Positions 7,562 to 26,098 of a stretch of DNA of 64,000 bases are shown here, piece after piece. Both the position numbers and the translations under genes were made by a program. Within the stretch, counting starts at the first letter, position 1. Every line of letters begins with the position of its first letter. The notes under the pieces were generated by a model, which saw only the letters and a program-made list of their open reading frames with translations, was not told the origin of the DNA and did no database searches. The stretch comes from Streptomyces mirabilis (GTDB lineage: Bacteria > Actinomycetota > Actinomycetes > Streptomycetales > Streptomycetaceae), in NCBI RefSeq assembly GCF_039503195.1, contig NZ_JBCJKP010000001.1:10354001-10418000 (forward strand). The letters run 5' to 3'.

Positions 7562-8434
7562 ATGTCTGAGGGGCCGGTGGTGGTGGGGACGGACGGCTCG
7601 GCCGGAGCGGCACGCGCCGTGCTGTGGGCCGCGCAGGAGGCCGCGCTGCGGCATCAGCCCCTGCACATCGTGTGTGCCGTCGACCTCGACCTGGCGGAGC
7701 GCCTGTCCGCCGAAACCGCCCGGCGCGTGCGTGAGGCCGCCCGGTCTCTGGTGACCGAGGCGGCGGCCGCGGCCACCGAGAGGGCGCCTGACCTGACGGT
7801 CACCACGGAGGTCGGCCGGGAACCCGTGGCGGACAGCCTGCTACGGGCCGCATCGGCAGTGCCACATGCCGGGGACGCCGCGGTGGCGATCGTTGTGGGT
7901 TCGCGGGGGATGGGCGGTTTCTCCGCGCTGCTGCTGGGCTCGGTCGCGCTGACGCTGGCCGGACAGGCGAGGTGCCCGGTGGTCGTCGTGCGTGATACGG
8001 CGCGGCCGTCGAGCGGGGTGGTCGTGGTGGGCGTACGGGATGAGGGGGACCTCGGAGCGGTGCGCTTCGCCGGGGAGATGGCCAGGCGGCGGAAGGCGTC
8101 CTTGCGTCTGCTCAGTGCGTGGACCTACATCCAGTACGTCGGAAGCATGGCGCCCATGGCCGACGTGGCGCGGGGTGCCGTGGAGGCGAAGGCCGCGGCG
8201 AGCACGCGCGTGCTCGGCTCCGTCCAGGCCGAGTTCCCGGACCTCGAGGTGACCGAAGAGGTGGTGCGGGTCCCGTCGCCGGCCGGTGCACTGGTCGCGG
8301 CGTCCCTGCGCGCGGATCTCGTCGTGTCGGGCACGCGCAGGCCCGCGCACCACGTAGGCCGTTCCCTGGGCAGGGTCACGCACGCCGTTCTGCAGCACGC
8401 GCACTGCCCGGTGGCTGTCGTCCCGCGGGGGTGA
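7562..8434 (+). CDS. Universal stress protein, two UspA domains
   Basis: 290 residues with tandem UspA folds. Domain 1 (about 5-145) opens with VVVGTDGSAGAAR and ends with the ATP loop GSRGMGGFSALLLGSVAL, matching G-2x-G-9x-G(S). Domain 2 (about 152-288) is degenerate at the nucleotide loop (SGTRRPAHHVGRSLGRVTHA), so probably only domain 1 binds ATP. Tandem USPs are a hallmark of the mycobacterial DosR regulon and of Streptomyces hypoxia clusters, where they act in dormancy survival. A GTTGGTCGGGT precedes the ATG with no strong RBS. Confidence 0.92.
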   Translation: MSEGPVVVGTDGSAGAARAVLWAAQEAALRHQPLHIVCAVDLDLAERLSAETARRVREAARSLVTEAAAAATERAPDLTVTTEVGREPVADSLLRAASAVPHAGDAAVAIVVGSRGMGGFSALLLGSVALTLAGQARCPVVVVRDTARPSSGVVVVGVRDEGDLGAVRFAGEMARRRKASLRLLSAWTYIQYVGSMAPMADVARGAVEAKAAASTRVLGSVQAEFPDLEVTEEVVRVPSPAGALVAASLRADLVVSGTRRPAHHVGRSLGRVTHAVLQHAHCPVAVVPRG

Positions 8435-8591: not shown

Positions 8592-10319
8592 TCAGTCCGC
8601 CCGGTCTTTGCGCAGGAACCGGCGCAGCCGTCGCAGCGGCCAGGTGTTGATCACATCGTCCGGGGTGATCCATCCGCGTTGTGCCGTGCCGATGCCGTAG
8701 CGGAGGTAGGCGAGCTGGGGGATGGAGTGGGCGTCGGTGTCGATGGCGAACTTCGCCCCGTGACTCCTGGCCCGGAGGATGTCCTCGTCGCCCAGGTCGA
8801 GGCGGTCTGGTTGGGCGTTGATCTCCAGTGCTGTGCCGGTGCGGGCGCAGGCGGCGAAGACCTCGTCGAGGTCGGCGTCGATGCCTGGCCGTTTGCCGAT
8901 CAGGCGGGTGGTGGGGTGTCCGATGACGTGGATGTGGGGGTTCTCGCAGGCGCGTACGAGCCGCCGGGTCATCGCCTCCCGGCCGAGGTTGAAGTGAGAG
9001 TGCACCGAGGCCACGCAGATGTCGAAGCCCTGGAGGAAGTCGTCGGGCCAGTCCACCTCCCCGTCGGGGCCGATGTTGAGCTCGGTGCCGTGCAGCAGCC
9101 GCATCCCGTGGTGCCTGCCGTCCAGTGCGCGTACGCGCTCGCGCTGGGCGAGGACCTTCTCGTCGGTCATGCGCTGCATGTACAGGTTCGGTGCATGGTC
9201 GGTGACCGCGTAGTACGCGTAGCCCCGCTCGGCGGCCGCTGCCATCATCTCCTCCAGCGGGGCGAGGCCGTCGGTGAGGTCGGTGTGGGTGTGCAGATCA
9301 CCACGGATGTCCTGCTCGGTCACCACCTCGGGCAGTTCGCCGCGCAGGCCGGCTTCGATCTCCCCTCGGTCCTCGCGCAGCGTGGGCGGGATCCAGGGCA
9401 GGCCGAGCCGGGCGTACACCTCGTCCTCGGAGCGGGAAGCGACCCGCTTCCCGCTCTCGGTGTCGAACAGGCCGTACTCGGAGAGCTTCAGCCCCAGGTG
9501 GACGGCGATCGTGCGGGTGCGGATGTTGTGCGCCTTGGAGCCGGTGAAGTACTGCATTCCGGCGCCCCACGCGTCCGGTCGCACCACGCGCAGGTCGACC
9601 TGTACGCCCGTGACGGTACGGATCGAGGTCTTCTTCTCGCCGTGCGCGATGACCTCGGCGGTGGAGGGCAGTTCGGTGAGGGCCTCCATGAACGGGGCCG
9701 ACCGGTCGGAGGCGACGAGGATGTCGATGTCGCCGATGGTTTCCTTCATGCGGCGCAGCGAACCGGCGTATGCACACTGTGCACAGCCCGTGATCCGGGA
9801 GAGTTCCGTGACGATGTCCTCGGCGGCCTCCATGGCGGTGCTCAGCAGGATCCGCCCTCCCGCCTGCTGCATCAGGGCGATGCCGTGCAGGATGTTCTCC
9901 TCGGTCTTCTCTCCGAAGCCCTTCAGGTCGCGCAGCTTCTCCGCCTTGATGGCGTCGGCCAGTTCGCTCACCGAGGAGATGCGCAGATCCTCGTAGAGCT
10001 CCATCGCCTTCTTGGGGCCGAGGGTGGGGATGGTGATGAGTTGCCGTACCCCTGCCGGAATCCTGGCCCGCCTCTCCTCGACCACCGTGACCTTGCCGGT
10101 GCGGAAGTACTCGATGACCTTCTCGGCGATCGACTTGCCCACGCCCGGGATCTCTTTCAGACCCGCGGCGTCCAGGTGGGAGACGTCGGCGGGGTAGCCG
10201 CCGATGGCGCGGGCCGCCTTTTCGTAGGCGCGCGCCTTGAACGCGTCGCCTCCGGTGATGGCGATGAGGTCCGCATACTCCTGCAGGAGTGCCTCGACCT
10301 CCTCGTTGGGCCGCACCAC
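8592..10319 (-). CDS. polX: DNA polymerase X family / PHP-domain protein (PolX)
   Basis: 575 residues, normal for bacterial PolX. Order: a helix-hairpin-helix polymerase-beta N-terminal domain with IPGVGKSIAEKV and IPTLGPKKA; a nucleotidyltransferase palm with GSLRRMKETIGDIDILV, carrying two of the catalytic carboxylates; and a C-terminal PHP phosphoesterase domain from about 335 with DLHTHTDLTDG, HGTELNI, HSHF and DTDAH metal-binding motifs. The family does gap-filling DNA synthesis and has 3'-5' exonuclease or AP-endonuclease activity in base-excision repair. The start GTG at 10319 is the first in frame. It is convergent with the USP gene. Codon usage and motifs are intact. Confidence 0.93.
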   Translation of the reverse strand: MVRPNEEVEALLQEYADLIAITGGDAFKARAYEKAARAIGGYPADVSHLDAAGLKEIPGVGKSIAEKVIEYFRTGKVTVVEERRARIPAGVRQLITIPTLGPKKAMELYEDLRISSVSELADAIKAEKLRDLKGFGEKTEENILHGIALMQQAGGRILLSTAMEAAEDIVTELSRITGCAQCAYAGSLRRMKETIGDIDILVASDRSAPFMEALTELPSTAEVIAHGEKKTSIRTVTGVQVDLRVVRPDAWGAGMQYFTGSKAHNIRTRTIAVHLGLKLSEYGLFDTESGKRVASRSEDEVYARLGLPWIPPTLREDRGEIEAGLRGELPEVVTEQDIRGDLHTHTDLTDGLAPLEEMMAAAAERGYAYYAVTDHAPNLYMQRMTDEKVLAQRERVRALDGRHHGMRLLHGTELNIGPDGEVDWPDDFLQGFDICVASVHSHFNLGREAMTRRLVRACENPHIHVIGHPTTRLIGKRPGIDADLDEVFAACARTGTALEINAQPDRLDLGDEDILRARSHGAKFAIDTDAHSIPQLAYLRYGIGTAQRGWITPDDVINTWPLRRLRRFLRKDRAD

Positions 10320-10975: not shown

Positions 10976-11275
10976 TGAAGGGTGTCCCCGGTCCGCGATC
11001 CGTGCCGGGGCGAGCGTGATGTTGTCGGGTTCGCCGGCCGCGACGGCGGCCTTCAGTAGGGGGAAAGTGATCTGCTCCGCTTCCCGCTGCCGGTCCGCCA
11101 GCTCCGTCGCGGAGGGGTTTCCCGACATCATCGGCCGGACCGACCGGTGATGTCGAGGACCGTTCGGCCCCTGTCGTCGCGTACGCCGCGCGCGCATGAT
11201 GACCTTACGACCCGGCCGCGCCCAGGCACGGCGCTCCAGATTGGGCCGCGAGGAGGAATCTGGGAGGTGGTCGCC
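10976..11275. other. Region downstream of the PCMT relic
   Basis: A minus-strand reading (SGNPSATELADRQREAEQ followed by LKAAVAAGEPDNITL, about 11010-11130) has protein-like composition but is not identified. The segment includes the box at 11157-11170 and the leader of the next ORF. Confidence 0.3.
11157..11170. promoter_or_regulatory. Candidate DosR/OsdR-like box
   Basis: GGACCGTTCGGCCC is an imperfect palindrome (one mismatch to GGGCC-N4-GGCCC) 105 bp upstream of the GTG at 11276. It shares the core CCGTTCGGCCC with the box at 28267-28280. Confidence 0.45.
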
Positions 11276-12035: not shown

Positions 12036-12494
12036 ATGACTCTGCCCGCACGACACCGGCACGGCAGCATGCTGGAGCGGGCCTACCCGCCGATAGCCGC
12101 CGAGTTCGACGAATTCTTCGAGCGGATGAACCGGTTCCTGGAGTCCGCCGCACCGTCCTGGACGGAGCCCATGGCCTGGGCGCCGTTGGCCGACCTGAGC
12201 GAGACCGACGAGGCCTACAAGATCGAGTGCGAACTGCCCGGCATCAAGCGCGAGGACATCAACGTCGAGGTCAGCGGTCGGGAACTGCACATCACCGGGG
12301 AGCTGAAGGAACGCGAACGGGAAGGCGTCCTGCGCCGCGCCATGCGCCGCACCGGGCGATTCGAGTACCGGGCGCTGCTGCCCACCGATGTGAAGGCCGA
12401 GGACGTGCACGCCACCCTTGCCGACGGCATCCTCACCGTCGCTGTCCCCAAAGCTCAGGCGGCCAAGCCCCATCACATCGAGATTGAGAGCTGA
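12036..12494 (+). CDS. Hsp20 small heat-shock protein
   Basis: 152 residues. I chose the ATG at 12036 because GGAGGTGAG lies 4 nt upstream; the frame is open further 5'. The alpha-crystallin domain spans about 45-140: PLADLSETDEAYKIECELPG, INVEVSGRELHITGE and the final ADGILTVAVPK (GILxxxxPK motif). A C-terminal I-x-I motif (IEI) mediates oligomerisation. The protein is an ATP-independent holdase in the cytoplasm. In M. tuberculosis the equivalent (Acr/HspX) is the most strongly DosR-induced gene. A broken paralogue lies at 19885-20130. Confidence 0.93.
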   Translation: MTLPARHRHGSMLERAYPPIAAEFDEFFERMNRFLESAAPSWTEPMAWAPLADLSETDEAYKIECELPGIKREDINVEVSGRELHITGELKEREREGVLRRAMRRTGRFEYRALLPTDVKAEDVHATLADGILTVAVPKAQAAKPHHIEIES

Positions 12495-12729: not shown

Positions 12730-13497
12730 ATGCTTGACAGAGTTCAGGACGTGCCCTCCGGGGTGGACGCTGTGAAGGCGATCGGCACAGTGTCGAAGGG
12801 CGACTACGAAGCGGTGATCGAACCGCTCGTCGACAACGCACGCAGGGAAGGCCGCCGGATCCGGCTTCTGTACGAGTTCGGCCCGGAATTCGGGTCGTTC
12901 ACCCCGGCGGCCGGCTGGGAGGACTTCAAGGTGGGGATCGGCGCCATGCGCCTGTTCGAAGGGTGCGCCGTCGTTAGCGACATCGGCTGGATCCGGCAGT
13001 CGACCCGGCTCGCGAGCTTCCTGATGCCCTGTCCGGTACGCGTCTTCGGCGGCCAGGATCGCGCAGAGGCCCTGCGCTGGCTCATCTCACTGCCCGAAGG
13101 CCCCGGCGTCTCCCACCAGCTCCTGCCCGAGTCCAAGATTCTCGTGGTCGAGGTCGAACAGCCCTTGCGTGAACAGGACTTCGACGCGCTGGCGCAAACA
13201 GCCGACAGCTGGCTCGAAACCCATGACGAACTGGCCGGTGTCGTGGTACACGCTCGTACCTTTCCGGGATGGGAGAACATCGGAAGCCTGCTCCGGCATG
13301 TGCGTTTCGTCCGTGACCATCATCGCAAGGTCAGGAGGATCGCGTTGGCGGCCGACAGCAAGCTCGCGGGCCTCGTGCCTCACTTCGCGAACCACTTCAC
13401 CCAAGCCGAGGTACGGCAGTTCGGCTACGGAGAACTCGACGTCGCCGTCGCCTGGGCCTCGAGTCCGCCCGACCGTAACCCCGCGGGCGAGGGTTGA
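12730..13497 (+). CDS. Tandem SpoIIAA-like (DUF3478/STAS-like) protein
   Basis: 255 residues. GAGAGGAAC sits just 5' of ATG 12730, fixing the start. Two SpoIIAA-like domains (CRAL-TRIO-like fold, PF11964 type) appear in tandem: domain 1 (about 5-125) has AIGTVSKGDYEAVIEPLV, IRLLYEFGPEF and KVGIGAMRLFEGCAVVSD; domain 2 (about 135-245) has ILVVEVEQPLREQDFDAL, AGVVVHARTFPGWENIGS and VRRIALAADSKLAGL. Single-domain members are the common form. The function is unknown; the fold suggests lipid or protein partner binding. It follows hsp20 in a likely stress operon. Confidence 0.85.
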   Translation: MLDRVQDVPSGVDAVKAIGTVSKGDYEAVIEPLVDNARREGRRIRLLYEFGPEFGSFTPAAGWEDFKVGIGAMRLFEGCAVVSDIGWIRQSTRLASFLMPCPVRVFGGQDRAEALRWLISLPEGPGVSHQLLPESKILVVEVEQPLREQDFDALAQTADSWLETHDELAGVVVHARTFPGWENIGSLLRHVRFVRDHHRKVRRIALAADSKLAGLVPHFANHFTQAEVRQFGYGELDVAVAWASSPPDRNPAGEG

Positions 13498-13714: not shown

Positions 13715-13880
13715 TTGGCAGGGGCTACTTGGCTACGCGGGCGTGGTGCCCGAGAGCCTCGGGCGGGCCTGGTGCACTGCCCAGCAACCCCAGCGCCCGA
13801 AGTGCTGCCACCGCCAGGAGTCGACCGGGGCAGGGCGGCCGATGGTGTGCGAGGGCCTGGCCGGAGCGCGGAGGCGCTGC
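13715..13880 (+). pseudogene. GH65-family glycosidase/phosphorylase N-terminal relic
   Basis: Pieces in three frames line up with residues 24-75 of the intact GH65 gene at 36610: GYLATR (cf. GYFATRG), RAGLVHCP (identical to the intact gene), CCHRQESTGAGRPMVCEGL (cf. CYNRLESTVAGRQVVNEDL). At least two frameshifts separate them. The DNA around GGCCTGGTGCACTGCCC is identical in both loci. The remaining 750 residues are absent. Confidence 0.6.
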
Positions 13881-14102
13881 GTGAAGGGCGCGCCGGTTTC
13901 CGCGCCCTGGCCACGGACGCTGGACAGGCCTGCGGCCTGTCGGACGCGTCCGAGCGGCCATGCGGCGCAGGCTCTGACACGCCGTGGGTACCGTTCCGCG
14001 GCATGCGGACGGGAGGCGATGTATCCACACTGGTCTTGAGGGGGGTGCCGGGCGGGCCGGACTCCACGGGTTCTTTCCGCGCGGACACAGAAGGAGAGTC
14101 CC

Positions 14103-14162
14103 ATGACCACCGCCCGAAAGATCATGCAGACCGGTGCGGCCCCCTGGCCGACCGATGGCTGA
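14103..14162 (+). pseudogene. Start of an Hrp1-like CBS protein (19 codons left)
   Basis: After a strong RBS (GAAGGAGAG, 5 nt) the ATG at 14103 opens MTTARKIMQTGAAPWP and then hits TGA at 14160-14162. The first eleven residues mirror MTTARDIMHTGA of the intact Hrp1-like gene at 24715. A deletion has removed the rest. The translation signals survive, so a 19-residue peptide could still be made. Confidence 0.6.
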
Positions 14163-14236
14163 GACGCCTGCGCGGCACGTCCGATGGCCATGGTCACCCC
14201 ACCGCAACACCGACGTCCGTCTACCCGGGAGAGGAA

Positions 14237-15079
14237 ATGACTGGTCCGATCGTGGTCGGAGTCGATGGCTCCGGGCGAAGTCTGCGAGCTCTGGTGTGGG
14301 CCGCCCACGAGGCGACTCTGCGCCAGTGCCCCTTGCGCATCATCCATGTCCTGCCCCTGTTCCACTCCTACGCGACCACCGAGGAGGGGCGCGCCCAGGA
14401 GGCACGGCAATGGGACCACGGCGTCGTGGACGAGGCCACCGCCATCGTGCAGGAAGCCCATCCGGACCTGGAGGTCACATCCGCTCTCCCCTCGGGCACC
14501 CCGGCAGCGGTGCTGTTGGCCGAAGCCGAGCACGCCCACACGGTGGTCCTCGGGGCAAAAGGCATGGGCGGCTTCGGCAGTCTGTTGCTCGGCTCGGTCG
14601 CCTTGCAGGTGGTCGGTCACGCGGCCGGCCCGGTGGTCATCGTCAACCACGCCACCACTGGCCATGGCCGCATCGTCGTCGGCGCCGACGGGTCGGCGCA
14701 CTCCCGGGCCGCTCTGGCCTATGCCTTCGAGCAGGCGTCGCTGCGCGGTGCCCAGTTGCAGGCCGTGCACGCCTGGAGCCATCCAGGGCCCCACGCCTAT
14801 GTCAGTGTGGCCCAGGACGCCATGGCCAAGGAGCAGCGGCAGGCGTTGGAGGAGTGGCTGGATCCGCTGCGCGAGGAGTACCCCGACGTCGAGGTGGTGG
14901 AACAGCTGCCCGACGAGCCACCGGTGATCGCGCTGGCCCGCGCCTCGGACCGGGCCGACCTTCTGGTCGTCGGCTCTCGTGGACTCGGCGGCTTCCACGG
15001 TCTGGCGCTCGGCTCCGTCAGCCACCACCTCCTGCAGTTCTCCCAGTGCCCCCTGGCAGTCATTCGCCCACGGGCCTGA
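14237..15079 (+). CDS. Universal stress protein, two UspA domains
   Basis: 280 residues from ATG 14237 (GAGAGGAA upstream); the frame is open much further upstream but that part is non-coding. Domain 1 opens IVVGVDGSGRSLRALVWAAH and has the ATP loop GAKGMGGFGSLLLGSVAL; domain 2 opens IVVGADGSAHSRAALAYAFE with the loop GSRGLGGFHGLALGSVSHHL. Both nucleotide loops fit G-2x-G-9x-G(S), so two ATP sites are expected. It directly follows the truncated CBS start at 14103, so it was probably the second gene of a CBS-USP operon. Confidence 0.94.
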   Translation: MTGPIVVGVDGSGRSLRALVWAAHEATLRQCPLRIIHVLPLFHSYATTEEGRAQEARQWDHGVVDEATAIVQEAHPDLEVTSALPSGTPAAVLLAEAEHAHTVVLGAKGMGGFGSLLLGSVALQVVGHAAGPVVIVNHATTGHGRIVVGADGSAHSRAALAYAFEQASLRGAQLQAVHAWSHPGPHAYVSVAQDAMAKEQRQALEEWLDPLREEYPDVEVVEQLPDEPPVIALARASDRADLLVVGSRGLGGFHGLALGSVSHHLLQFSQCPLAVIRPRA

Positions 15080-15240
15080 GCATCGCTGACCACTGACCGC
15101 GTACGACGCCACGCCTTCCCCGAGCGGCTGCGCCGGCGGCTTCAACACGCTGGCGTCGCCGCGCCAGCCGCCACCATCACTGTATGAAATGACAGGTGCC
15201 GGTCGAGAGGCCGCAGGCGCGAGCGGGCAAGGAGAAGATC

Positions 15241-15660
15241 ATGCCCATTGACGGAGAGTGGTACAACGAGTTCGGTTCGCTCATGAACCTCGAGTCGGAC
15301 CCGGAGGGTACCGTCACCGGAAGGTACGTCACCGCCGTAGGACACACGCCGGGGGCGTACGTCCTCACTGGACGCCATGACGGGCCGACGAGCCCGGGAA
15401 ACGGCATCGCTGTCGGTTGGACGGTCGCCTGGCGCAACGAGCATGGCAACGTGGGCTCCGTCACGAGTTGGAGCGGCCAGTTCTTTGCCGACCCGGACCG
15501 TATCTTCACCACCTGGCTGCTGACCCGATCCGCCACGGCGGAGGCATGGGAGGCCACTGTGGTCGGGCAAGATGTGTTCACTCGGCAGAAGCGGACCAGC
15601 GAGGACGTCGAGCGCGCTCTTCACAGCGGCCGACCCGTCTCGCACCCGATGCCGACCTGA
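15241..15660 (+). CDS. Streptavidin/avidin-family protein without signal peptide
   Basis: 139 residues from ATG 15241 (AAGGAGAAG RBS). The whole chain is one avidin beta-barrel: GEWYNEFGS (cf. GTWYNQLGS of streptavidin), GRYVTAVG, YVLTGRHD, GWTVAWRNE, TSWSGQF, TTWLLT, and AWEATVVGQDVFT. The biotin contacts known from streptavidin are kept: the Asn and Ser of the first strand, Tyr43, Trp79, Ser88, Thr90, Trp92, Trp108, Trp120 and Asp128 equivalents; Ser45 is replaced by Thr and Asn49 by His. Streptavidin is secreted; this protein starts directly at strand 1 and has no signal peptide, so it should be cytoplasmic. The alternative GTG/ATG upstream (15196) adds only a basic, non-signal stretch. 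Confidence 0.9.
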   Translation: MPIDGEWYNEFGSLMNLESDPEGTVTGRYVTAVGHTPGAYVLTGRHDGPTSPGNGIAVGWTVAWRNEHGNVGSVTSWSGQFFADPDRIFTTWLLTRSATAEAWEATVVGQDVFTRQKRTSEDVERALHSGRPVSHPMPT

Positions 15661-16227: not shown

Positions 16228-16962
16228 GTGCTCGCCGCCGCGGCAACGACAAGGGCAGCCATCGGCGTTCGCCACCCTGGGGGTGCAGTGGTGATCAGTC
16301 GCCTCGCAGACGCCGTAGTGCCCGTCTTCGGCCGCCTGGACGTCACCACAGATGCCGGGTCCGGACCGATTGCGGGCAGCGTCATCATCGCCAACCACAC
16401 CTCCCTCAGCGACCCCGCGATCGTCCTCGCCGCCCTGCACCGCCTCGGCACCGAGCCCATCGTCCTGACAGCCGCAGGGCTGTGGCACGTCCCCCTGCTC
16501 GGCCGTGTCCTCACGCGCGAGGGACACATCCCGGTTCACCGGCACGACCCACGAGCCGCCCAAGCACTGCACGAAGCCCAAGCCGCACTGACCGCGGGCC
16601 GCTCCGTCCTGCTCTACCCGGAAGGCGGCCTCCCACATCGCAAAGGCGTCCGCGAGGCTCCGCCCCGCCCCTTCCACCCCGGCCTGTTCCATCTCGCGCA
16701 CGCCACCGGCGCCCAGATCGTACCCGTGGGCCAGGCCGGAGCCCGCGCACTGGCATCCGGCAGCCCCCTCGAACAGGTGGCGAGGCTGCTCACCGCTCCG
16801 CTGCGCCGCCCACGGCTTCACGTACACATCGGTGGACCGCTGCGCCTGGACAGCGAACAGACCCAGGCCCAGGCACTCGCCCTGACACACAGCGCGCTGG
16901 CCCAAGCCTGGCACACCTCTGCCCGGCAGATCGGCGCACCGGTGCTCCTCACTGGGCGCTGA
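16228..16962 (+). CDS. 1-acyl-glycerol-3-phosphate acyltransferase (PlsC family)
   Basis: 244 residues from a GTG with AAGGTGA upstream; a GTG near 16291 is an alternative. The acyltransferase blocks are block I NHTSLSDPA (NHxxxxD), block II around GRVLTREGHIPVHR, block III LLYPEGG (usually EGTR; here EGGLPHR, a mild variant), and block IV VPVGQAGA. The enzyme would acylate lysophosphatidate or a related acceptor at the membrane face. No transmembrane helix is evident. It stands alone between relics; a role in membrane or storage-lipid remodelling in dormancy is inference. Confidence 0.85.
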   Translation: MLAAAATTRAAIGVRHPGGAVVISRLADAVVPVFGRLDVTTDAGSGPIAGSVIIANHTSLSDPAIVLAALHRLGTEPIVLTAAGLWHVPLLGRVLTREGHIPVHRHDPRAAQALHEAQAALTAGRSVLLYPEGGLPHRKGVREAPPRPFHPGLFHLAHATGAQIVPVGQAGARALASGSPLEQVARLLTAPLRRPRLHVHIGGPLRLDSEQTQAQALALTHSALAQAWHTSARQIGAPVLLTGR

Positions 16963-17119: not shown

Positions 17120-17135
17120 GGGGCCGATCGGCCCC
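17120..17135. promoter_or_regulatory. Perfect palindrome, candidate DosR/OsdR box
   Basis: GGGGCCGATCGGCCCC is a perfect 16-bp palindrome 81 bp upstream of the slipin-relic start (17217). It fits the GGGxC-N4-GxCCC pattern shared with the DosR-box core. Confidence 0.5.
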
Positions 17136-17596: not shown

Positions 17597-17896
17597 ATGA
17601 CCATGGTCCAGGCATCATGGACGACGACAGGTGTGTTCACGGGGCAGGGCGGCGTTCGTACCGACGAGGCGGGGATCGTCACCGGGGAGCTGACCGTGCA
17701 TACCACCTGGGACGGCAGGCAGGCTGATGTGAAGATCCAGTACACCGGCACCTCCGAGTGGTACACCCTGACCGGCAGCCCGGTGCCGTGTCCTTCTCAG
17801 CAGGCCAGCCGAAACCTGCACCAAGCAGTGGTGGAAGCCGTACGGGCCGGCGGCGCCACCATCGCGCAGCACGACCAACTCCGGGTACGCCCTTGA
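17597..17896 (+). CDS. Conserved hypothetical protein, 99 residues
   Basis: Start ATG 17597 after GAAGGAAGG. The chain has regular alternating beta-strand-like segments: WTTTGVFTGQGGVRTDEAG, VTGELTVHTTWDGRQADVKI, QYTGTSEWYTLTGSPV and a C-terminal helix with HQAVVEAVRAGG. No signal peptide or cysteine motif. I believe similar small proteins occur in Streptomyces stress clusters but cannot name a domain. It is convergent with the Vms1-like gene. Confidence 0.75.
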   Translation: MTMVQASWTTTGVFTGQGGVRTDEAGIVTGELTVHTTWDGRQADVKIQYTGTSEWYTLTGSPVPCPSQQASRNLHQAVVEAVRAGGATIAQHDQLRVRP

Positions 17897-17939: not shown

Positions 17940-19043
17940 TCATGCGCGGGATGGGGTGTCGGCGTAGCGCAGCAGTACGCCAACGCCTTCGCTCAACCAC
18001 AGCTTTTGCTCGGGCACCACGACCAGTTCGGCCCTCGTGCCGACGAGGGCGCGGGCCAGGGCCGAGTCAGCTCGTTCCTCGCTGACCTCGTGTATTCCGT
18101 AGGAGCGCAGCTCCTGTTCGGCGAGGGCGAGTTGGCCGGGTTCCGGGCCGGCCCACAGACGGAACGGCGACTCGGGGTGGTTGTTGAGGAAAAGGGCCTT
18201 GACCCGGCCGCGTTGCAGCGCCGACACGGCGGGCGCGAGGCCTTCCGCGGAGGCTCCGTCGCGGGCCCGCTCGGTGAGGAAGGCGTCCAGAAGTGCTCGG
18301 TCATGCGCGGCCAAGCGCCCTTCGAAGAGGCTTTCAAGCCGATGCTCCAGCAGTGCCCGCCCGGGTGCGGACTCGCCGGCGCCCTGCACGGTGGTGACGT
18401 GTGGGCGCAGGGCGGCCGGAAGCCGGTGGACGAGAATGCCGCGGGCCCAGACGTCTCCGGCGACGACCACCGTCTCGACGTCGATGCGCCGTGCGTGACC
18501 TTCCAGCTCCCGGCCGACCTCTCTGGCGGCACGGGTCCAGTCGGCCACCGGGATCTCCTCGTCCAGCCGGTGGCCCGGCGTGACCTTGGTCAGCGGCCAT
18601 GTGCCCACCTCGGCTTCGATCCGTACGGTGCCGGTGGCGTCCGTCGAGTGACGGCCGCCGTAGTGCACGTGAACCGCCAGGTACGGGATCCCGGGCGCGT
18701 GCTGGACGATCAGCGGCATGGTGTCCGGCAGCGTTCCGAAGTGCGCGGTGTCCCGTGCGGGCGGTGCGGGCAACTCGTCCAGCAGGGCCAGGTGTCCGTG
18801 AGCGGTGAACACGGCCTGCCCGTGGGTGCCGGGCACGTCCGTGTCGCTGCCCACGGTGCCCGCCACCGCGGTGATGGAGTCCCGGTCCGCTCCCTCCGAC
18901 ATCAGTGCGTCCCGAAGACGCCGCCAGCGCCGTTGTACAGCGGCATCGGGATCCTCGATGGCGGCGTCGCGGGACGTGTCCAGGTAGACGGACGCGAAGG
19001 GACCGGGCTGCTTGTAGAGAGGTTCCAGGAAGGAAAGTCTCAT
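17940..19043 (-). CDS. Vms1/eRF1-like protein (Rv2629 family)
   Basis: 367 residues from ATG at 19043 (GGGAGTGGCC upstream); the longer frame to 19217 is not coding. N-terminal MRLSFLEPLYKQPGPFASVYLDT is typical of actinobacterial Rv2629 proteins. A middle domain (about 130-270, VETVVVAGDVWARGILVHRL) resembles eRF1 domain 2, and the C-terminal part (about 285-365, FLNNHPESPFRLWAG, ALVGTRAELVVVPEQ) resembles eRF1 domain 3/pelota. The eRF1 GGQ is not evident. Vms1-type proteins act on peptidyl-tRNA at stalled ribosomes; Rv2629 is in the DosR regulon. A broken paralogue lies at 7141-7495. Confidence 0.88.
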   Translation of the reverse strand: MRLSFLEPLYKQPGPFASVYLDTSRDAAIEDPDAAVQRRWRRLRDALMSEGADRDSITAVAGTVGSDTDVPGTHGQAVFTAHGHLALLDELPAPPARDTAHFGTLPDTMPLIVQHAPGIPYLAVHVHYGGRHSTDATGTVRIEAEVGTWPLTKVTPGHRLDEEIPVADWTRAAREVGRELEGHARRIDVETVVVAGDVWARGILVHRLPAALRPHVTTVQGAGESAPGRALLEHRLESLFEGRLAAHDRALLDAFLTERARDGASAEGLAPAVSALQRGRVKALFLNNHPESPFRLWAGPEPGQLALAEQELRSYGIHEVSEERADSALARALVGTRAELVVVPEQKLWLSEGVGVLLRYADTPSRA

Positions 19044-19217
19044 GGCCACTCCCGAATGGACTGTCGGCGCCACGTGCCACCACGCCCGGGATGCCGCCGT
19101 ATCAAGACACGTTCGGGTTGGCGTGCCGCAGCTTTTCCAACTCCAGGATGCGCCCGCCTCACGAGCCGTGCCCGCTCGCCGTACGAGCCCCCGGCCGGCC
19201 GGCGCCGACCTGGTCAT

Positions 19218-19330: not shown

Positions 19331-19558
19331 ATGAAGGCGCATGAAGGTGACGTGCTGCGGTTCGTCGGCAGAACAGTGGGAGCCACCGAACACCATGCCA
19401 CTGTCGTGCAGGTGCTCGGCGAAAACGGAGAACCGCCCTACCGGGTGTGCTACGAAGACGGTCACGAGACAGAGATCTTTCCCGGCCCGGGATGCGTGAT
19501 CGAGACCCATCCGGCACACGAGACCTCGTTCGGGCAGGCGCATCGGGAGAGGCAGTGA
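19331..19558 (+). CDS. DUF1918 domain protein
   Basis: 75 residues, GAGGTGAGC RBS. The DUF1918 pattern is complete: MKAHEGDVLRFVGRTVG, VVQVLGENGEPPYRVCYEDG and the terminal IFPGPGCVI. The fold is a small SH3-like barrel of unknown function, common in actinobacteria and recurrent in hypoxia clusters. A partially fused second copy lies at 34056. Confidence 0.88.
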   Translation: MKAHEGDVLRFVGRTVGATEHHATVVQVLGENGEPPYRVCYEDGHETEIFPGPGCVIETHPAHETSFGQAHRERQ

Positions 19559-21999: not shown

Positions 22000-22800
22000 C
22001 TACTCGACGGGGGAGATCAGGCCGTAATGGCCGTCGTAGCGGTGGTACAGGACGTTTCCCCGCCCGGTGGCGGCGTCGGCGAAGAACACGAACGGGAATC
22101 CTGTGAGGTCCAGCCGCTGCTTCGCCTCGCCTCCGTTCATCCGGGGAGCGGGGAGGTCGCTGACGGTGAGCTGCACGGCCGCGGGGCCGACCAGGTGGGG
22201 GTGGGGATGGACCTGGGCGAGGCGGTAGCCCGTCGGGCCGGACCGGTACAGGACGCTGTCCTCTCCGGTGCCGACGTCGGTGAAGAGATGGAAGTCGTAG
22301 TCCATCGACTCCAGCTCGAAGGCCGCCTCGTCGGGCGACTCCCGGGCGAGCGAGTAGGACTTGTGCCGTACGACCTGTCGTTCCTCGGCCGGGCGCGGGA
22401 AGTAGTCGGGTCGGTGGGCGGGCCCGCTGCCGTGACGCCACTCGTGCGGGCCCGGCGCCGGCGTCTTGCCCCGCCGGGCCTCCCAGTGCTCCTCCAGCCG
22501 CTCCAGCCGTGCAGCGAGCCGGTCCTGCAGCAGGTCGACGGCCTCGATCACGGCCGTGGCGGCGACGTGCGCGCGGAGCGGACGCCCGTTGACGTCCAGA
22601 TTGGCCTGGGCGATCGCGGGCCGCTCCACGGCGGGGTTGGCCATATGGGTCAGCTTGACGCGAGCGTACAGAACCGGCTCCCGCGTCCGGCCGGTGAGCA
22701 CCCGTACCTTCTCCTGCGCGTACTCGACGGCTCCTGGTGGCATCGGTCCCTGTGCCTCCACCTGGATTTCCGGAGCCCGCTGTGGTGCCGATCGCTTCAT
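22000..22800 (-). CDS. Long ribosome hibernation promoting factor (HPF/RafH-like)
   Basis: 266 residues. N-terminal part (about 8-105) is an HPF/YfiA ribosome-binding domain (EIQVEAQGPMPPGAVEYAQE, VLYARVKLTHMANPAVE). The C-terminal part has two copies of the S30AE C-terminal dimerisation motif: MDYDFHLFTDVGTGEDSVLY near 160-180 and FPFVFFADAATGRGNVLYHR near 238-260. Canonical long HPF carries one such domain; tandem copies occur in actinobacterial hypoxia-linked members. It silences ribosomes by forming 100S dimers or stabilised 70S. RafH of M. smegmatis is a DosR-controlled relative. Start ATG at 22800. Confidence 0.88.
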   Translation of the reverse strand: MKRSAPQRAPEIQVEAQGPMPPGAVEYAQEKVRVLTGRTREPVLYARVKLTHMANPAVERPAIAQANLDVNGRPLRAHVAATAVIEAVDLLQDRLAARLERLEEHWEARRGKTPAPGPHEWRHGSGPAHRPDYFPRPAEERQVVRHKSYSLARESPDEAAFELESMDYDFHLFTDVGTGEDSVLYRSGPTGYRLAQVHPHPHLVGPAAVQLTVSDLPAPRMNGGEAKQRLDLTGFPFVFFADAATGRGNVLYHRYDGHYGLISPVE

Positions 22801-23894: not shown

Positions 23895-24566
23895 ATGCAG
23901 CACCGGAGAGTCGGAGAGCTCATGACGACGGCGGTGGTGCGCGTGCGGCGTGACACGGGCTTCAAGGACATCGCCGTACGGCTCGCGGAGCACGACGTCA
24001 CGGCGGTCCCGGTCGTCGACGACCAGGAGCACCCGATCGGCGTGGTGTCGGAGGCGGACCTGCTGCGCAAGCAGCAGCGTCAGCTGGATCCGGGGGGACA
24101 TCTGGCAGGCGCCCACCTTCCGCCCGCGGAAAGTGCCAAGGCGCATGCGCTGACCGCCGAGGGGTTGATGACCAGCCCGGCCGTCACAGCACGGCCGGAC
24201 TGGTCGGTGGTGGAGGCGGCCCGCACCATGGACCGTCACCACGTCAAACGGCTGCCCGTCGTGGACGACGCCGACCGACTGGTGGGGATCGTCAGCCGCG
24301 CGGACCTGCTGCGCGTCTTCCTGCGGCGAGACCTCACGATCTGCGAGGAGATCACGGCCGAGGTCCTGACCCGGACCCTTGGTCTGGACCCCGCCTCGGT
24401 CACGGTCCGGGTCACCGGCGGACGGGCGACGCTCAGCGGCATCGTGCCGCACAGCAGGCTCATCCCCGTCGCGGTACGTCTGTGCGAAAGCGTCGACGGC
24501 GTCATCGACGTCACCAACCACCTCAACTACGCCGTCGATGACACCGGGAGTACACCACGGCCATAG
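23895..24566 (+). CDS. CBS-BON domain protein
   Basis: 223 residues. CBS1 (VGELMTTAVVRVRRDTGFKD, GVVSEADLLRKQ), a linker, CBS2 (LMTSPAVTARPDWSVVEAAR, GIVSRADLLRVFLRRD) and a C-terminal BON domain (about 150-215, VTVRVTGGRATLSGIVP, VDGVIDVTNHLNY). CBS pairs bind adenosine nucleotides as energy sensors; BON suggests membrane or ligand association. A second intact gene of this type is at 25433, and broken ones at 33690 and 35690. Confidence 0.9.
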   Translation: MQHRRVGELMTTAVVRVRRDTGFKDIAVRLAEHDVTAVPVVDDQEHPIGVVSEADLLRKQQRQLDPGGHLAGAHLPPAESAKAHALTAEGLMTSPAVTARPDWSVVEAARTMDRHHVKRLPVVDDADRLVGIVSRADLLRVFLRRDLTICEEITAEVLTRTLGLDPASVTVRVTGGRATLSGIVPHSRLIPVAVRLCESVDGVIDVTNHLNYAVDDTGSTPRP

Positions 24567-24714
24567 CCCCCTCCGTGCTACGCGACGCCGGCACCACGGG
24601 CTCTGCCCGACACCGGTTCCGTGGCTGCGGCGCCCTGGCTGCCGCTTGCCGGCGTGCGTAGGGCACTTCGAGAACCCATACCGGGCATGAGCCCACATCG
24701 GAAAGGGAGAAGCC

Positions 24715-25134
24715 ATGACCACTGCGCGGGACATCATGCACACCGGCGCCACCTGCATCCAGGAAAGCCAGACGCTGGAGGACGCAGCGCGCAGGATGAA
24801 GGAACTGAACGTCGGCGCTCTGCCGATCTGCGGGGAGGACGACCGCCTCCACGGGATCATCACCGACCGAGACATCGTGTTGAAGTGCCTCGCCAAGGGC
24901 AAAGACCCGCGGACCATGACCGCGGGCGAGCTCGAACAGGGCAAGCCGATCACGATCGACGCGGACACTGACAGCGACCGTGTCCTCCAGGTCATGGAGG
25001 AGCACAAGATCCGAAGGCTGCCGGTCATCGAGAACCACCGCCTCATCGGCATGATCAGCGAGGCGGACCTCGCACGCCGTTTGCCGCAAGAGCAGGTGGG
25101 CCACTTCGTCGAGGTCGTCTGTGCGGCCACCTGA
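24715..25134 (+). CDS. hrp1: Hrp1-like CBS protein (hypoxic response protein 1)
   Basis: 139 residues, GGGAGAAG RBS. Two CBS motifs only: MTTARDIMHTGATCIQE..., LNVGALPICGEDDRLHGII, TDRDIVLKCLAKG, then MEEHKIRRLPVIENHRLIGM and SEADLARRLP. This is close to M. tuberculosis Hrp1 (Rv2626c), which begins MTTARDIM and has GALPICGDDDRLHG; the cysteine in LPIC is kept. Hrp1 is secreted and strongly DosR-induced; no signal peptide is visible here or there. The first codons also survive as a relic at 14103-14162. Confidence 0.92.
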   Translation: MTTARDIMHTGATCIQESQTLEDAARRMKELNVGALPICGEDDRLHGIITDRDIVLKCLAKGKDPRTMTAGELEQGKPITIDADTDSDRVLQVMEEHKIRRLPVIENHRLIGMISEADLARRLPQEQVGHFVEVVCAAT

Positions 25135-25135
25135 A

Positions 25136-25288
25136 TTCGAAGGGCGACTCATGGGGATGGTCTCCTTCGACGACCTGTTGTGGCGGCTGACCCAGGAACT
25201 GGCAGACCTGGCCGCCGTGGTCGACGCCGTGCGGAAAATCCCCGACACCTTTCACGGTACGAGGCAGGCGCCGCTGCTCGAGGGCTGA
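25136..25288 (+). pseudogene. C-terminal relic of another CBS protein
   Basis: The frame EGRLMGMVSFDDLLWRLTQE LADLAAVVDAV ends at TGA 25286-25288. GMVSFDDLL followed by a helical LADLA tail is the end of CBS proteins (cf. GIVTxDDLL). Translation from the ATG at 25151 would give 45 residues. The upstream CBS1 part is missing; the fragment overlaps the end of hrp1. Confidence 0.5.
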
Positions 25289-25432
25289 GACGGGTACAGC
25301 TTCGGGCCGTATGTCGCCGGCATTCGGGAGTATCGGCCCGGGAAACGGTCGGACATGCAAGGAGCACAGTGGAAGGCAAGGGACGCGAGTCGGCGTCCAC
25401 GCGATGCGCGTACGCAGGAAGGAGCTGTCACG

Positions 25433-26098
25433 ATGTCCGCCCAGCACAGCACCGTCAGCGAAGTGATGACACGCGACGTCGTCACCGTCAGTCCTGACAC
25501 CCCGTTCAAAGAGATCACCTCCGTACTGACCACCCATGGCATCGGCGCCGTGCCCGTGGCCGACACACGTGGTTCCCCCATGGGACTGGTCTCCGAAGCC
25601 GACCTGCTCCGCAAGCAGGCCGAGCAACCCGACAAATACGCCCAGCAGGAAACACCCCCCGGGTGGCCGCACGAGAGGGCCAAGGCGCGCGCGGAGAACG
25701 CCGCCGGGCTGATGACCACCCCCGTGGTCACCGCTCACGCCGACTGGCCGGTCGCCGAGGCAGCCCGGGCGATGGACCGCCACCGGGTCAGGCGGCTGCT
25801 GGTCGTGGACGAGACCGACCGCATCATCGGCATCGTCAGCCGCTCGGACCTGCTCCGCGTCTTCCTGCGCCCCGACGAGGAGATCCGCGAGGAGATCCGC
25901 GACGACGTACTGAAAGGGATGCTACGGCTGACCGGAACGGAAGTGCAGGTTCAGGTTCACGAGGGTGTCGTCACCCTGCGCGGGGAGGTCGAGAACCGCA
26001 GCACCGCCCAGATCGCCGAACGACTTGCCAACGGTGTGGACGGGGTCGTCAACGTCAGGCCGCTGATCGACTACGCCGTCGACGACATGATCGCGTAG
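25433..26098 (+). CDS. CBS-BON domain protein
   Basis: 221 residues; ATG 25433 chosen because AGGAAGGAG lies 9 nt upstream. CBS1 (VSEVMTRDVVTVSPDTPFKE, LVSEADLLRKQAEQPDK), CBS2 (LMTTPVVTAHADWPVAEAAR, GIVSRSDLLRVFLRPDEEI) and BON (about 165-215, VQVQVHEGVVTLRGEVENRS, VDGVVNVRPLIDY). Strongly similar in order and motifs to the gene at 23895, so they are paralogues flanking hrp1. Confidence 0.92.
   Translation: MSAQHSTVSEVMTRDVVTVSPDTPFKEITSVLTTHGIGAVPVADTRGSPMGLVSEADLLRKQAEQPDKYAQQETPPGWPHERAKARAENAAGLMTTPVVTAHADWPVAEAARAMDRHRVRRLLVVDETDRIIGIVSRSDLLRVFLRPDEEIREEIRDDVLKGMLRLTGTEVQVQVHEGVVTLRGEVENRSTAQIAERLANGVDGVVNVRPLIDYAVDDMIA

Follow-up and report, generated by a model that had tools for sequence, protein, structure and literature searches.

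This study provided evidence that the 139-residue avidin encoded in a 64,000-nucleotide stretch of Streptomyces mirabilis DNA (the whole stretch analysed, hereafter the window) belongs to an intracellular streptavidin branch kept in Streptomyces dormancy/stress islands. The protein combines a predicted avidin fold and the residues of the biotin pocket with the absence of an export signal and a dormancy neighbourhood that recurs among its relatives, and it is probably an intracellular biotin binder in a dormancy island. The gene and its translation signal were read as follows:

15241–15660, + strand: signal-less streptavidin-type avidin, 139 aa (ATG start; Pfam Avidin match)
15229–15240, + strand: AAGGAG ribosome-binding site and six-base spacer before the avidin ATG (sequence reading; upstream alignment of nine relatives)

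The original prediction assigned the protein to the streptavidin/avidin family from its motifs, and this assignment was borne out. The protein matched Pfam Avidin PF01382 at 90.8 bits (E=1e-25; curated cut-off 24) and no second Pfam family at E up to 1, and phmmer aligned its residues 3–136 with streptavidin 1stp at E=8.9e-32. It falls outside the NCBI streptavidin equivalog NF047623, scoring 135 bits against a cut-off of 300. An AlphaFold2 model from a 23-row alignment (pLDDT 87.7, pTM 0.82) is a predicted eight-stranded barrel with the pocket residues intact; its top PDB matches were streptavidins, and tamavidin 2 (2zsc) was among the Foldseek matches. It is the single avidin match in a genome of 11.1 Mb in 2 contigs.

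All six biotin-pocket residues named in advance were found: Y29, W64, W77, W92, W103 and D111 correspond to streptavidin Tyr43, Trp79, Trp92, Trp108, Trp120 and Asp128, and N9, S13, S73 and T75 to N23, S27, S88 and T90. Among the sites that we take to be the biotin contacts of streptavidin, the hydrogen-bond and tryptophan contacts N23, S27, Y43, S88, T90, D128, W79, W92, W108 and W120 are kept, S45 being Thr; the changes from streptavidin to the window avidin are L25F, S45T, N49H, A50T, R84G and A86V. In 16 signal-less rows, the mean entropy was 0.15 at the eleven hydrogen-bonding and Trp positions, compared with 0.90 over residues 3–114 (shuffle p about 0.00015 for the eleven positions and p 0.016 for all 19 contact positions). 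The window avidin has the fold, the main biotin contacts, the C-terminal helix and the tail position in common with streptavidin of Streptomyces avidinii and with streptavidins C1/C2, and it is 43–45% identical to the six secreted rows examined. It differs from the secreted streptavidins in having no signal peptide, in a tail of SHPMP instead of GNPL/ANPP, and in N49H and R84G.

The sequence around the start codon agrees with the earlier claim that the protein begins without a signal peptide behind a good ribosome-binding site. AAGGAG stands six bases before the ATG, and the sole other in-frame upstream start, GTG at 15196, would add MPVERPQARAGKEKI, 15 residues that are hydrophilic. The relatives of the window avidin use the same ATG, the plasmid-borne relative WP_266656289.1 has an identical annotated start, and L016, L030 and L015 have in-frame stops 1, 5 and 6 codons before the ATG, respectively. 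Signal peptides were judged by inspection at signal-less and secreted loci alike; by eye they were obvious in L020–L025, the six loci (four genomes) of the secreted group, and a streptavidin-type secretion signal peptide was absent from the window avidin. On the hydrophilic upstream frames and the stops in relatives, we reject a corrected upstream start with a signal peptide; the same evidence makes it extremely improbable that this is a secreted streptavidin of the usual kind whose start was misplaced, no point in favour of that idea having been found.

The signal-less form is not confined to this genome. Avidins were present in 11 of the 392 Streptomyces genomes of the genus sample, signal-less in seven (G000, G101, G189, G315, G336, G370 and, as a broken gene, G255) and secreted in four (G039, G042, G073 and G158, with two genes each in G039 and G042). 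A scan of named-species genomes gave 66 matched stretches that reduced to 15 loci, all signal-less, although the scan favours such loci because one of its two peptide patterns from the signal-less clade includes the start Met; three of these loci (L027, L035, L040) are places also found in other genomes scanned. The family sample yielded avidins in 18 of 249 genomes. Outside Streptomyces, there were 22 hits in 14 genomes, 21 of which were inspected: the 20 unbroken avidins have their start codon at most six codons from the first barrel strand, and none shows a clear signal peptide in the 45 residues above that strand, L092 being the least clear. L096 is one fragment of a broken gene, the other being L098 (the inspection covered L096), and L079 and L080 denote the same places as L032 and L031. 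In the order and class samples, which overlap with the other samples, 9 of 293 and 4 of 394 genomes had avidins; the distant avidins in G393, G406, G407 and G914 seem signal-less too, and L067 (= L041, genome G548) is signal-less.

Several further observations concern the family at large. Six Kitasatospora-level loci (L090, L092, L093, L094, L095 and L097) encode a second, divergent signal-less type that ends soon after the barrel without an SHP tail, and some Kitasatospora-level genomes carry two or more avidins. Signal-less avidin with Hsp20 nearby was seen on two plasmid records, L076 (NZ_CP109361.1, 64 kb, linear) and L077 (NZ_CP108366.1, 1.7 Mb). Over 19.5 kb, the L076 stretch matches part of a 902-kb contig of Streptomyces sp. 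NBC_01549 (L015/L027) at 99.98% identity; records of very different size thus carry this piece of the island. Distant avidin-like matches occurred in plasmid records of Rhizobium (37) and Xanthomonas (44), a marginal match of 24.1 bits lies inside a 2739-residue open frame (G411:C22:11534-11758), and 50,697 phage records gave no avidin match at E 1e-3.

Two trees bear on the relation between signal-less and secreted avidins. A tree of 28 rows had a branch with 100/100 support that set all 18 signal-less streptavidin-type rows apart. On the best 43-row tree, the signal-less label takes two changes (a single change sufficed in 54% of 200 bootstrap trees), and the secreted rows, six in number, cluster with a support of 65/99. 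Among the papers listed by our literature search, none dealt with signal-less or intracellular bacterial avidins, and none in the collection searched combined the words avidin, Streptomyces, universal stress protein and biotin, although a figure by Laitinen et al. 2021 (PMC8033661), which marks signal peptides, may already include some signal-less members.

The genes around the window avidin that characterize the dormancy/stress island are as follows:

12036–12494, + strand: Hsp20 small heat-shock protein (PF00011, E=6e-21)
12730–13497, + strand: SpoIIAA-like protein (PF11964, E=9e-40)
13715–15079, + strand: universal stress protein with two Usp domains, directly upstream of the avidin gene, exact start unsure (PF00582, E=3e-51)
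16228–16962, + strand: acyltransferase (PF01553, E=2e-18)
17940–19217, − strand: baeRF family 2 protein (PF18844, E=6e-27)
19331–19558, + strand: DUF1918 protein (PF08940, E=9e-20)
22000–22800, − strand: hibernation-factor-like protein, matched by S30AE C-terminal domains only (PF16321, E=3e-28)
23922–26098, + strand: three CBS-domain proteins, two with BON domains (PF00571, PF04972)

Further island genes encode DUF2267, SPW, nitroreductase, glycosyl hydrolase 65 and FtsH proteins. A small ORF at 17597–17896 is also conserved near the avidin gene in L018 and L033 (70–80% identity) and had no Pfam match at E up to 1.

The dormancy/stress setting that had been proposed for this gene proved to be real and recurrent across the genus. 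In tblastn searches with the window genes (E 1e-8; flanks reaching at most about 10 kb on either side), every one of the 15 other distinct signal-less loci in Streptomyces, which come from 14 genomes, had one or more island-type genes, versus none of 20 random regions drawn from four of the genomes (three PP2C-only hits set aside) and none of the six secreted loci. The 15 loci count the shared place L015/L027 once and leave out L031, L032 and L038, which are without island genes, and L034 is counted through FtsH alone. The contrast of 15/15 with 0/20 corresponds to p about 3e-10 if the loci are independent, a value that overstates the case since several loci are related by descent. Outside Streptomyces (E 1e-6), island genes (Usp, CBS, Hsp20, FtsH, hibernation factor and glycosyl hydrolase 65) abound at both loci of one g150 genome, and the g153 locus has one CBS gene. 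No island genes were found at the Kitasatospora-level loci L031, L032, L067, L102, L108, L109 and L110 or at Actinosynnema L038; L104 and L106 have PP2C alone, and L103, L105 and L107 one distant match each. Usp domain matches per genome ranged from 27 to 56 in signal-less carriers and from 6 to 32 in secreted carriers; in a comparison of 101 genomes, about 35 candidates were scored per genome, so that the counts saturate, and genome size is a confounder.

A regulatory side to this location was indicated by a position weight matrix (PWM) for OsdR, prepared from 17 published sites (PMC5069765, Table 1). Four OsdR-type sites of at least 12 bits were found by the PWM scan in the 5–42 kb part of the window, with no strand assigned:

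11156–11171: OsdR-type site, 16.1 bits
15801–15816: OsdR-type site, 13.6 bits, downstream of the avidin gene
17120–17135: OsdR-type site, 19.2 bits
28266–28281: OsdR-type site, 15.8 bits

Around 15 signal-less Streptomyces loci, 38 sites of at least 12 bits were counted in 250,864 bases, compared with 5 in 390,020 random bases; at this cut-off, two of the 15 loci were without a site. At the same threshold, L031, L032 and L038 had 2 sites in 49,245 bases, the six secreted loci had one, and these secreted loci together with the signal-less L067 had 2 in 123,230 bases. At 8.5 bits, the window held 10 sites versus 4–10 in six random sequences of like composition, which is no excess, and the OsdR-site excess therefore depends on the 12-bit cut-off, set after the 8.5-bit scan. 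By its neighbours and the four sites, the window avidin lies within an OsdR-type island, with Usp genes, nitroreductase and OsdR-type sites in common with the OsdR/DevR regulon island SCO0167–SCO0219 (PMC5069765), a paper whose main text contains neither the word avidin nor the word biotin.

Direct OsdR control of the window avidin gene is unsupported, as no OsdR-type box occurs within 400 bases upstream of it (best score 0.9 bits). Such an upstream box is also absent in seven of the eight closest relatives, the eighth, the broken L018, having one of 17.5 bits. The bases roughly 50–110 upstream of the ATG (within 15080–15240) are conserved in the window's clade and diverged in the window and L026, and no promoter type could be assigned to them by eye. 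Boxes close to the avidin gene were found elsewhere: in one g153 genome, a box of 20.6 bits stops 93 bases short of the avidin ATG, and S. meridianus has one of 14.1 bits in the space between the avidin gene and a divergent hibernation-factor gene. One g150 genome has a hibernation-factor gene (broken in the assembly) whose stop is overlapped by the ATG of the avidin gene; two boxes, of 15.5 and 17.9 bits, stand upstream of this hibernation-factor gene, which shares them with a divergent FtsH gene. Location, together with promoters in a few relatives, thus gives good support to a link between the avidin and the dormancy programme.

The C-terminal tail of the protein may add a further element to biotin binding:

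15640–15654, + strand: codons for the tail SHPMP (residues 134–138), a possible built-in pocket ligand (invariant in the clade; HPQ/HPM peptides bind streptavidin)

SHPMP is invariant in the seven distinct sequences of the clade, with an entropy of 0 versus 0.30 over residues 3–114 and 0.37 over residues 115–127. Tails elsewhere among the relatives are SHPS, PHPP, PHPVP, SHPR and SHPL, with SHPQ in a broken copy, and several relatives have no tail. HPQ and HPM peptides are well-known streptavidin binders (PMC5608804; HPQ/M binding also in PMC11211329), and a co-crystal shows HPQ bonded through its His and Gln to streptavidin Ser88 and Thr90 (PMC5608804), whose equivalents are conserved in the window avidin. 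The tail of streptavidin C1 is described as entering the biotin site (PMC7924230), and the C-terminal residues of bradavidin as an intrinsic ligand (PMC3344845). The tail-bearing streptavidins 2bc3 (2bc3_B) and 7cq0 were in the top three structural matches and aligned to model residue 138. We infer from these data that the SHPMP tail may occupy the empty biotin pocket as a weak built-in ligand.

Substitution patterns showed signs of purifying selection on the signal-less avidin. Pairwise dN/dS (Nei–Gojobori) was 0.10–0.50 among the window's clade and two Kitasatospora relatives, with the exception of the window/L026 pair (94% identical; 1.3 on very few changes), and 0.26–0.71 in the second Streptomyces clade. 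Impairment was seen in three Streptomyces copies, namely the frameshifted genes of L018 (at 9390–9660) and L033 (at 8001–8370) and that of L017, with pocket Trp92 replaced by Arg, for which draft-assembly errors are a possible cause. As the signal-less avidin is rare in the genus sample and impaired in some strains, dormancy does not need it. The patchy distribution, the impaired copies and the copies on two plasmid records would all suit an accessory cargo of a variable island that has little present function and has drifted since secretion was lost; this is very doubtful given dN/dS values mostly below 0.55, the conserved pocket and tail, and a signal-less state common to the whole branch.

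Concerning function, biotin sequestration in dormancy, as first suggested for this protein, is a possible role and, broadened to biotin capture inside resting cells, our leading reading. The island avidin would be made when growth stops, form a streptavidin-like oligomer in the cytoplasm and capture free biotin or biotin-like molecules, which would leave less biotin for charging newly made acyl-CoA and pyruvate carboxylases, while the captured vitamin would be held in store; the SHPMP tail would fill the empty pocket weakly until displaced by biotin. As a joint explanation this is the best that we can offer, and we give it slightly less than an even chance. Against it, the Kitasatospora and Actinosynnema relatives mostly lack the island, and the tail is absent or different in several relatives. 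A wider scenario is on the whole unlikely to hold, namely that the streptavidin family of Streptomycetaceae is mainly intracellular with the secreted forms as a side branch that gained a signal, and that the avidin, as a member of the OsdR dormancy programme alongside ribosome hibernation, would be a vitamin-level switch whose HPM-type tail sets the level of the biotin response.

The original prediction also pointed to competition with the pyruvate carboxylase at the window's left edge and a shut-down of carboxylation. The carboxylase C-terminus at 25–846 is real (PYC_OADA and Biotin_lipoyl), but it lies 14 kb from the avidin gene, a nearness that is uninformative on competition, and the shut-down is unsupported. 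Both bioB and BioY were present in all 11 avidin genomes tested, and a depletion of biotin could therefore be made good. The possession of bioB also speaks against a biotin store that serves germination only, without a metabolic brake; such a store would agree with the dormancy context and the conserved pocket, yet streptavidin-type binding hardly releases biotin unless the protein is degraded, and we regard it as very unlikely.

Tamavidins 1 and 2 of a mushroom, called cytoplasmic biotin-binding proteins (PMC6238071), bear on both the leading reading and a serious rival. Neither E. coli nor an expressing fungus suffered toxicity from cytoplasmic tamavidin 1 (PMC6238071), which argues against a simple biotin-starvation effect. 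The rival, modelled on what was proposed for tamavidin, is that the avidin is a stored anti-grazer protein, kept in the cytoplasm of resting hyphae or spores, that would starve nematodes, amoebae and fungi of biotin once the cells are eaten or lysed. Tamavidin 1 expressed in a fungus cut nematodes to under 4% of the control without harm to its producers (PMC6238071), and the secreted streptavidins C1/C2 inhibit Fusarium in a biotin-reversible manner (PMC7924230). Tamavidins are fungal, and it is for them that the grazer effect was tested; the dormancy genes and OsdR-type sites are not specially predicted by grazer defence, which we consider unlikely but weighty.

The second serious rival, intracellular resistance in which the avidin would soak up biotin-like antimetabolites of competitors such as acidomycin, seems quite unlikely to us. 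The biotin-synthesis enzymes targeted by such antimetabolites are cytoplasmic, which counts in its favour. Streptavidin also binds and neutralises acidomycin (PMC13336041). Resistance leaves the dormancy context unexplained, and the window avidin sits in a dormancy island in contrast to the published two-avidin biotin-antibiotic region (PMC13336041); judged by the single avidin alone, the window genome is without that arrangement.

The roles proposed in the bacterial literature examined concern secreted avidins. With an intracellular branch that is conserved and tied to dormancy genes, the control of biotin inside resting cells becomes a natural role open to testing, and signal-free avidins with a possible self-displacing ligand could serve biotechnology.
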